This document shows positions 29,183 to 30,933 of a DNA stretch of 64,000 bases, piece after piece; positions within the stretch are counted from its first letter, which is position 1; every line of letters starts with the position of its first letter. This DNA comes from Synechococcus sp. M16.1 (GTDB taxonomy: Bacteria > Cyanobacteriota > Cyanobacteriia > PCC-6307 > Cyanobiaceae): positions 992,001-1,056,000 of the forward strand of contig NZ_CP047954.1 in assembly GCF_014279895.1 (NCBI RefSeq), written 5' to 3'. The translations under genes and the position numbers were made by a program. The notes beneath the pieces were generated by a model. It saw nothing but the letters and a program-made list of their open reading frames with translations, was not told where the DNA came from and ran no database searches.

Positions 29183-29929
29183 ATGCTTAGGGCACTGCAA
29201 CACGGTGTGATGTCCGCACTCTGGATTCAGGCCCTGCTGGTGAACACGGTTTTGATTGCCCTGGCGCAGCGGACATCTGTTCTCACCCGCAGTGGTTGGG
29301 TCCATGCAGCTGCCTTGGGCACGATCCTCTGGGGGTGTTTGGGGTGGTCGGGCTGGTTGGCCGTGGTCGCCTATCTCTCTCTGGGAAGTCTGGTCACCAA
29401 GATCGGCTTTCAAAACAAGCAGAGCCGAGGACTTGCCGAAGCCCGCGGTGGGCAGCGCGGCCCTGAAAACGTCTGGGGTTCTGCGGCTGTTGGAGCATTC
29501 CTGGCACTGCTCATCGGTGCCGGTGTCGAGCCCCGTGAGCTGATGTTGGTTGGTTTTGCGGCGAGTTTTGCCGCCAAGTTGGCCGACACCTTCGGCAGTG
29601 AGATCGGCAAACGATTCGGGCGTACCACGGTGTTGATCACCAGCCTTCGGGTGGTTCCACCAGGAACCGAAGGGGCCATCAGCCTTGAGGGAACCCTGGC
29701 CAGTGCCGCCGGCAGCATCGCCATGACCCTGGTGATGCTGGCCCTGCAGCTGGTTCCTTCATGGCCTGTGGCAGTCCTGGTGATGCTGGTTGGCCTGGTG
29801 GCGACCCTCGGCGAAAGCCTGCTCGGTGCTCTGGTGCAGGATCGCGTGGCGTGGTTGAGCAATGAGTTGGTCAATGCTCTCCAGACCCTTTTGGCCGCAG
29901 TTCTGGCGATGCTGCTGATGGTGCTTTGA
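29183..29929 (+). CDS. DUF92 (VTE6-like) membrane protein
   Basis: A 248-residue protein with about six membrane helices and the family block KIGFQNKQSRGLAEARGGQR, plus LADTFGSEIGKRFGR. Plant and cyanobacterial homologues in this family include VTE6, a phytyl-phosphate kinase that recycles phytol for tocopherol and chlorophyll; that assignment is by family. The ATG at 29183 is used; an ATG nine codons later (29210) is possible. Confidence 0.85.
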   Translation: MLRALQHGVMSALWIQALLVNTVLIALAQRTSVLTRSGWVHAAALGTILWGCLGWSGWLAVVAYLSLGSLVTKIGFQNKQSRGLAEARGGQRGPENVWGSAAVGAFLALLIGAGVEPRELMLVGFAASFAAKLADTFGSEIGKRFGRTTVLITSLRVVPPGTEGAISLEGTLASAAGSIAMTLVMLALQLVPSWPVAVLVMLVGLVATLGESLLGALVQDRVAWLSNELVNALQTLLAAVLAMLLMVL

Positions 29930-30685
29930 TCAGCTGGTTTGGATGGGCATCAGACCATCGCGCTGGGCCAATTGCTGCAGCAGTTGAACGCCCTCATGGA
30001 GATGAAGGCGCAGGGATGAACGGCTGCAATTCATGGCCTGAGCCAGATCCTTGAGGGTCTGGCCTTCGATCAAGTGGGCTTGCAGCACCGTTCCGGCCAG
30101 GCCATCCACCTGGTGCAGCACGCTCTTCAGCCAGTCCAGGTGTTCATCCTCCACACTCGAGCTTGCTGGCTCCCCAGGGCTGGCAGACAGGTCGACGACC
30201 TGGCTGGCTCCATGGCTCTGAACGGCGGCAGCCCAGCGCTCTGGTCGAACCGAGAGTTCGGTAGCAAGATCCTGATCGCTGAGAAGCGGTTGCCGGTTCT
30301 GTTCGCGTTCCCGCTGGATCTTCATTCCGGCTGCCTAAAGATCACGCAGTCGCCAGGGAATCCGAATGGTGCGTGATCGATCGCGGCGGTAGTGGAGGAT
30401 TTGGCCGGTGGCTCGCGAGAGCAGATAGCTGCTGGGGCGGAGGCCTCGTTGTTGATCAAACCGTTCAAGGCCACGGATCAATCCAACCCTGGACTCCTGC
30501 AGAAGGTCGTCGAACTCTTCGGGGCCGCGCTGCTGTTGGCGACGGGCCGCGCAGTGCGCCAGGCCCAGGTGCTTGAGAGCCTGCTGATTGCGTCGTGCAA
30601 CGCAGGGCGGCAGTCCACGCCGGGACTCCTGGTGCAGGTGACGTTGAGAAATCAAGGGATCAGTGCAACTGATCCAACGGTTCAA
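29930..30685 (-). pseudogene. Sigma-70 family factor split by an in-frame TAG
   Basis: One continuous frame encodes a small group 3-like sigma factor. Residues 1-116 include region 2 (FDDLLQESRVGLIRGLERFD, then SYLLSRATGQILHYRRDRSR and RIPWRLRDL). An amber TAG follows at 30335-30337, then in the same frame AAGMKIQRERE, region 3 (LSDQDLATELSV) and region 4 with a helix-turn-helix (QTLKDLAQAMNCSRSSLRLH). One sense codon in place of TAG would give about 251 residues, a normal size. The start is TTG with GAGG upstream. It could be a true nonsense mutation, a sequencing error or readthrough. Confidence 0.85.
30335..30337 (-). other. In-frame amber codon in the sigma factor
   Basis: The reverse-strand TAG lies between CTT (Leu) and GCA (Ala), and both sides continue a sigma-70 alignment. 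One base change (for example from TAC, TAT or CAG) would restore the gene. An ATG four codons downstream could restart only the region 3-4 part. Confidence 0.8.
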
Positions 30686-30768
30686 CCCTCAGCCCCGAAG
30701 CGGTTGGCCCTTTGGTGCCGCAGATCGGCACTTTCGTGCCGGATCATGGGTGCAACGGTTTTGGATGG

Positions 30769-30933
30769 ATGGACTGGCAACCAGAAGCACTGGCAGCACT
30801 CAAGAAAGATGTTCCGTTCTTCGTACGGCCTGCTGTTCGTAAACGGGTTGAGGCGATGGCGGATTCAGACGGACGTTCCGACATCGACCTGGATTTCTAC
30901 AAATCCGCCAAGCAGGCCATGGCCCCGAGCTGA
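30769..30933 (+). CDS. PCP-reductase domain protein, 54 aa
   Basis: The small protein (MDWQPEALAALKKDVPFFVR, then IDLDFYKSAKQ) matches the PCP_red domain found at the C-terminus of ChlB, the dark-operative protochlorophyllide reductase subunit. Here it stands alone. The ATG at 30769 gives the domain alone; an upstream in-frame ATG-less stretch to 30712 looks non-coding and would overlap the sigma gene leader. It is divergent from the split sigma factor. Confidence 0.8.
   Translation: MDWQPEALAALKKDVPFFVRPAVRKRVEAMADSDGRSDIDLDFYKSAKQAMAPS

Follow-up and report, generated by a model that had tools for sequence, protein, structure and literature searches.

In Synechocystis and Nostoc punctiforme, SigF is a cyanobacterial group 3 sigma factor that regulates pilA (PMC7690835, PMC2758279). 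PMC7125226 links SigF2 of Synechococcus elongatus PCC 7942 to competence and to dprA. Marine Synechococcus has lost its type IV pilus apparatus in a patchy way, with pilB, pilC, and pilQ absent or partial in some strains (PMC7994388), and such loss recurs in the genomes considered here; the term SigF is absent from the main text of that paper. Nonsense pseudogenes and recurrent gene loss are well-known kinds of event, and what is new beside the known loss of the pilus is the parallel decay of sigma factor genes. A search by title and abstract opening, with most subscription journals outside its scope, returned no published account of the decay of the sigma factor that we describe.

The window, by which we mean the whole 64-kb stretch of DNA analyzed, covers bases 992001-1056000 of a one-contig genome (G000; 2,112,236 bases, 99.99% complete). 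Among named relatives, the nearest five (L032-L036) are either marine Synechococcus or MAGs of Synechococcus.

An interrupted SigF-like gene

A sequence-only reading of this DNA had placed sigma factor regions 2 and 3-4 in a single frame, parted only by a TAG, and both the open reading frames and our reading of the frame bear this out. The gene is on the minus strand, which that reading did not give, and runs from 30685 to 29930 as 251 codons plus a final stop, with a TTG start at 30685-30683 and a TGA stop at 29932-29930. Its sole internal stop is the TAG at 30337-30335 (codon 117), which falls after region 2 and before regions 3-4. The upstream open reading frame (30335-30685, minus strand) encodes 116 amino acids and carries region 2, matched by Pfam Sigma70_r2 (PF04542) over residues 39-106, or 30368-30571 after conversion to window coordinates, with 51.4 bits against a cut-off of 24 (E = 9e-14). 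The downstream open reading frame (29930-30325, minus strand) encodes 131 amino acids from a first ATG 9 nt past the TAG, and carries a weak match to the region 4 helix-turn-helix (Sigma70_r4, PF04545; residues 199-237, 29975-30091; 16.8 bits against a cut-off of 24.1, E = 0.005). A TIGR02937 match spans residues 32-238 with 67.4 bits, above its cut-off of 42.9. Since the seven nearest relatives with an open frame (G029, G010, G003, G026, G020, G009, and G005) align end to end across codon 117, at 77-94% identity, the 251-codon frame is not a product of chance. WH7803 also encodes a relative, at 39% identity.

The top NCBIfam model for the gene was SigF (NF005644), at 92.0 bits, far under the curated cut-off of 261 bits. 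With the same model, four relatives scored 96.5, 95.9, 103.3, and 86.5 bits and a relative of the same class (G040) scored 399.2 bits; we therefore call the window gene a divergent SigF-like gene, not SigF. It also differs from SigF in its upstream region: a search of 25 genomes, covering the 140 bases ahead of the matched start, found no SigF-type promoter, defined as TAGGC or TGGGC, 13-17 bases, and GGTAA (core motifs from PMC2758279).

The gene lies tail-to-tail with a DUF92 membrane protein gene (29183-29929, plus strand), which served as the control gene in our genus comparison, and is divergent from a gene for a small PCP_red-domain protein (30763-30933, plus strand), which served as a synteny marker. 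Between the sigma gene and the PCP_red gene is a palindrome, GGCAC-N4-GTGCC (30727-30740), which lies 55 to 42 bases upstream of the start of the sigma gene. It was present in 16 of 25 upstream regions (once as GGTAC), with the loop altered in the distant ones, and occurs as a single copy in the window; it is a candidate regulator site or RNA hairpin.

Codon 117 and other lesions across the genus

The sequence-only reading had proposed an alignment to related Synechococcus, and in that alignment the near homologues carried Tyr at codon 117 and G022 carried His, with no stop there. The window gene stops at codon 117 of 251, well before the conserved end, and none of the 22 other sequences in the 23-sequence alignment does so; their residues are Tyr (14), His (1, G022), Phe (2), Ala (4), and Thr (1). 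A separate alignment gave Tyr in G032 and G006 as well. The codon itself is TAC in G032, G029, G003, G010, G026, and G020, and CAT in G022. Because the nearest relatives carry TAC, one base change accounts for the TAG. A tree of the Mfd gene (30 rows) places G032 as sister to G000 (support 100/99), and because G032 has TAC, the TAG most simply postdates the split between the two. These sense codons, including the Tyr in the sister genome, support the suggestion of a recent nonsense mutation or strain-specific loss; the stress role that the sequence-only reading gave the factor is conjectural.

We then compared the locus across the genus, which comprises 34 genomes. The 28 that carry the flanking DUF92 gene were scored, and the six that were dropped (G011, G013, G019, G025, G028, and G031) are fragmentary assemblies that are at most 77% complete. 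The sigma frame was open in 18 genomes, counting G002 (on another contig), G012 (a partial-length match), and G018 (some N), and was broken or gone in 10. Nine genomes of the genus besides the window's own have thus broken or lost the gene through other lesions, which again fits the proposed strain-specific loss. The DUF92 neighbor was open in all 28 (Fisher p = 0.0007 against the sigma gene).

The set of lesions differed in each of the ten genomes, sisters G000/G032 and G006/G015 included (positions are codons in G029 numbering unless otherwise stated). Single nonsense codons were present in G000 (TAG117), G022 (TGA150), and G015 (TAA197, own numbering). G032 has two 1-base deletions (124 and 198) plus TAG185; G030 has deletions of 1 base (108), 2 bases (115), and 1 base (247) as well as TAG185; and G014 has TGA7, three 1-base indels, and two further stops (216 and 218). 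A 1-base deletion was seen in G006 (128, relative to G004) and three 1-base deletions in G017 (relative to G007). G001 has lost 705 bases from within the sigma gene and keeps an in-frame stub of 16 codons (L074:1448-1497), and in G008, the 1,400 bases beside DUF92 hold no trace of the sigma gene, nor of PCP_red.

One stop was common to two genomes, TAG185 in G030 and G032, where near relatives have TGG (Trp), and this rules out the statement that no two genomes share a lesion. Around the stop, G030 and G032 are alike at 35 of 45 bases, while G030 is nearest G003 (42/45) and G032 is nearest G010 (40/45). Because the local sequences differ and each is nearer another genome, TAG185 looks like the same change made twice, not one inherited lesion; a very short exchange may alternatively have carried it.

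Parsimony on the Mfd tree gave at least seven changes of sigma state. As a control, Mfd itself was disrupted at 2 of 30 loci, both in fragmentary assemblies (a stop in G014, two pieces in G002), so some of the sigma lesions in G014, and perhaps in G017, may be sequence errors. When these two genomes were left out, the sigma gene was broken or gone in 8 of 26. Repeated inactivation in marine Synechococcus suggests that the gene is dispensable, or selected against, in the lineages that lose it.

With no stop at codon 117 in any homologue examined, 10 of 28 copies broken or gone, and the DUF92 neighbor always open, we consider it highly likely that the window gene is a recent nonsense pseudogene. 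A TAC (Tyr) codon of a SigF-like alternative sigma factor would have become TAG, most simply through one base change, after the window lineage parted from that of G032. The product, if made, would end after region 2 and could not be expected to act as a normal sigma factor.

We also examined the gene for signs of selection. In six pairs with both copies open (G010-G020, G009-G005, G029-G003, G029-G010, G029-G026, and G009-G010), Nei-Gojobori dN/dS was 0.15-0.29, indicating purifying selection. The value for G000 against the intact G029 copy was 0.27, which falls within the range of the intact pairs, so relaxation is not visible in G000; either the stop arose too recently to have shifted dN/dS visibly, or the gene is not in decay. 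Compared with its near relatives, G000 has few changes of its own, with nonsynonymous:synonymous counts of 1:4 before the stop and 4:3 after it; in the G029 control, the corresponding counts were 0:0 and 3:5. Several private changes after the stop, R237Q and W239L among them, had been candidates for decay, and this idea was dropped, as residues 237 and 239 are shared with open copies of distant relatives.

The sigma gene does not follow the Mfd tree. Its dS is 0.12 between G000 and G029 and 0.26 between G000 and G032, which places G000 nearer G029, contrary to that tree. Recombination has therefore probably moved the sigma gene, and the event counts given above are approximate. In its second half, the G032 sigma gene (L034, L099) looks more like those of G010/G020 than like that of the sister genome G000, a pattern suggestive of recombination.

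Alternative explanations for the stop

A sequencing or assembly error, which would mean that codon 117 is really a sense codon and the gene unbroken, is improbable. Every close relative that keeps codon 117 has a sense codon there, and the dN/dS of the G000 copy resembles that of intact copies, as an error would predict. Against this, the genome is a single, nearly complete contig, the change is a substitution and not a homopolymer indel, and the gene is also broken or lost in other genomes assembled into one or two contigs (G001, G006, G008, G015, G022, and G030).

SigO-RsoA of Bacillus subtilis is a two-subunit sigma factor, a stable arrangement in which one polypeptide carries region 2 and another carries region 4. 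By analogy, the window gene might yield region 2 and regions 3-4 as separate chains that act together, with translation of the second chain re-initiated at the ATG 9 nt past the TAG. The stop does sit between the domain matches, and the C-to-G change that made it also creates an AGG that lies 8 nt ahead of the codon 121 ATG. Both halves look constrained, with G000-G029 dN/dS of 0.04 and 0.41 (0.21-0.41 in the second half of intact pairs), although a young pseudogene would look alike. In contrast to SigO-RsoA, the split is confined to one genome: of the 23 aligned sequences, just the window's own is split at this place, so the split is not conserved, and the other nine lost or damaged copies have their lesions elsewhere, with frameshifts or deletions in seven of them. 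We regard such a two-piece factor as very unlikely; if it were real, one base change would have produced coupled termination and re-initiation, and the window would hold a natural SigO-RsoA-like factor caught at birth.

Least credible of all is the amber readthrough raised by the sequence-only reading, in which the TAG is decoded as an amino acid and a full-length sigma factor is made: the frame is open on either side of the TAG, TAG is rare as a stop in G000 (8 of 149 sampled genes), and G030 and G032 carry a TAG at a different codon, 185, but none of the homologues examined stops at codon 117, other genomes carry TGA150 or TAA197, G030 and G032 also have frameshifts, and a scan of the 64-kb window found no suppressor tRNA. 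The notion of amber recoding had also arisen from a set of 28 hand-picked window genes, none ending in TAG, and was rejected on the wider sample. TAG ends genes in G000 at a rate similar to that in seven relatives without this TAG (11 of 132), so that it is a normal though rare stop. Stop usage in the G000 sample is skewed to TGA (125 genes, against 16 for TAA). Special decoding is further disfavored because G000, G022, and G015 carry three different stops at three places. As several relatives have broken or lost the gene each in its own way, the locus looks like a dispensable gene under loss, not a novel reading of the genetic code.

The pilBTC locus and a second SigF-like gene

The window genome has lost its pilB-pilT-pilC locus. 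Codons 1-55 of PilB are joined straight to residues 254-419 of PilC (G000:C1:20317-20959; L174:4318-4960), a deletion of ~3.5 kb relative to the intact G029 locus that took out pilT entirely, along with the remainder of pilB and the leading portion of pilC; PilQ in G000 is a fragment. The breakpoints differ in G032 (PilB to about 155, PilC from 340) and in G001 (PilB to about 229 with a frameshift, PilC from 333). A further PilB/PilT/PilC set, pilus or type II secretion-like, occurs apart from the usual pilBTC in G010, G014, G015, G016, G023, and G028.

We scored pilBTC by hand, with a residue-level check in nine genomes, leaving out G012 and G023 because of contig ends. Where the sigma gene was broken, pilBTC was broken in nine genomes and intact in one (G022); where it was open, pilBTC was broken in three (G003, G020, and G033) and intact in 13. 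Loss of the sigma gene thus goes with loss of pilBTC (9/10 vs. 3/16; Fisher p = 0.0008). The association gave p = 0.0028 without G004 and G026, which were scored intact but have pil genes that run off contigs, and p = 0.0062 when G014 and G017 were removed too. Among six phylogenetically independent pairs, 4.1 changed in the same direction and 0.1 in the opposite one, which is not significant (median p = 0.125); without those four genomes, the counts were 1.3 and 0.1 of three pairs.

Other comparisons bear on how specific this association is. PhoX, a control unrelated to pili, also tracked the sigma gene (Fisher p = 0.0095, with 2.5 pairs in the same direction and 0 in the opposite one) as well as pilBTC (p = 0.036), and genomes with a broken sigma gene were smaller (p = 0.043, 19 near-complete genomes). 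In contrast, neither PilQ (p = 0.68) nor ComEC (p = 0.23 under one scoring rule and 0.68 under another) was associated with the sigma gene. Gene-poor lineages may therefore just shed many accessory genes. Other results against a pilus role are G022, with its broken sigma gene beside an intact pilBTC, and the lack of a SigF-type promoter ahead of the gene in 25 genomes. With these results and the weak phylogenetic pairs, we treat a pilus role of the sigma factor as a lead, possible but somewhat doubtful. More tentatively, then, the factor may act on type IV pilus or competence genes, in the manner of SigF and SigF2 in model cyanobacteria, and its gene may decay after the pilus machine has been lost.

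A second SigF-like gene is located ~59 kb from the first (G000:C1:1080821-1081507) and scores 133 bits to NF005644. There is a TGA at the very start of the match in G000, and the start codon is ambiguous. The second gene is open in G000 and broken in G032, G030, G001, G003, G020, G014, and probably G022. Its loss tracks that of pilBTC (p = 0.012 for 24 genomes; p = 0.017 for 20 genomes under strict scoring) and is less clearly related to loss of the first sigma gene (p = 0.095 and 0.062); all four values come from hand scoring and ignore descent. Genomes of the genus often have two SigF-like genes, which recalls PCC 7942 with its SigF2, and both decay in the window's clade. The likeness to SigF2 is tentative, and the second gene is nearer the SigF model than the window gene is.

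A single nonsense pseudogene is ordinary; what is useful is the pattern, with 10 of 28 genomes affected, seven or more state changes, and a neighbor that is open throughout. The broken copies and their intact sister strains form a natural knock-out series for a sigma factor that is apparently unstudied in marine Synechococcus, and its regulon could be read from transcriptomes. The series also offers a testable idea, namely that loss of the regulator follows loss of the pilus that the regulator may serve.
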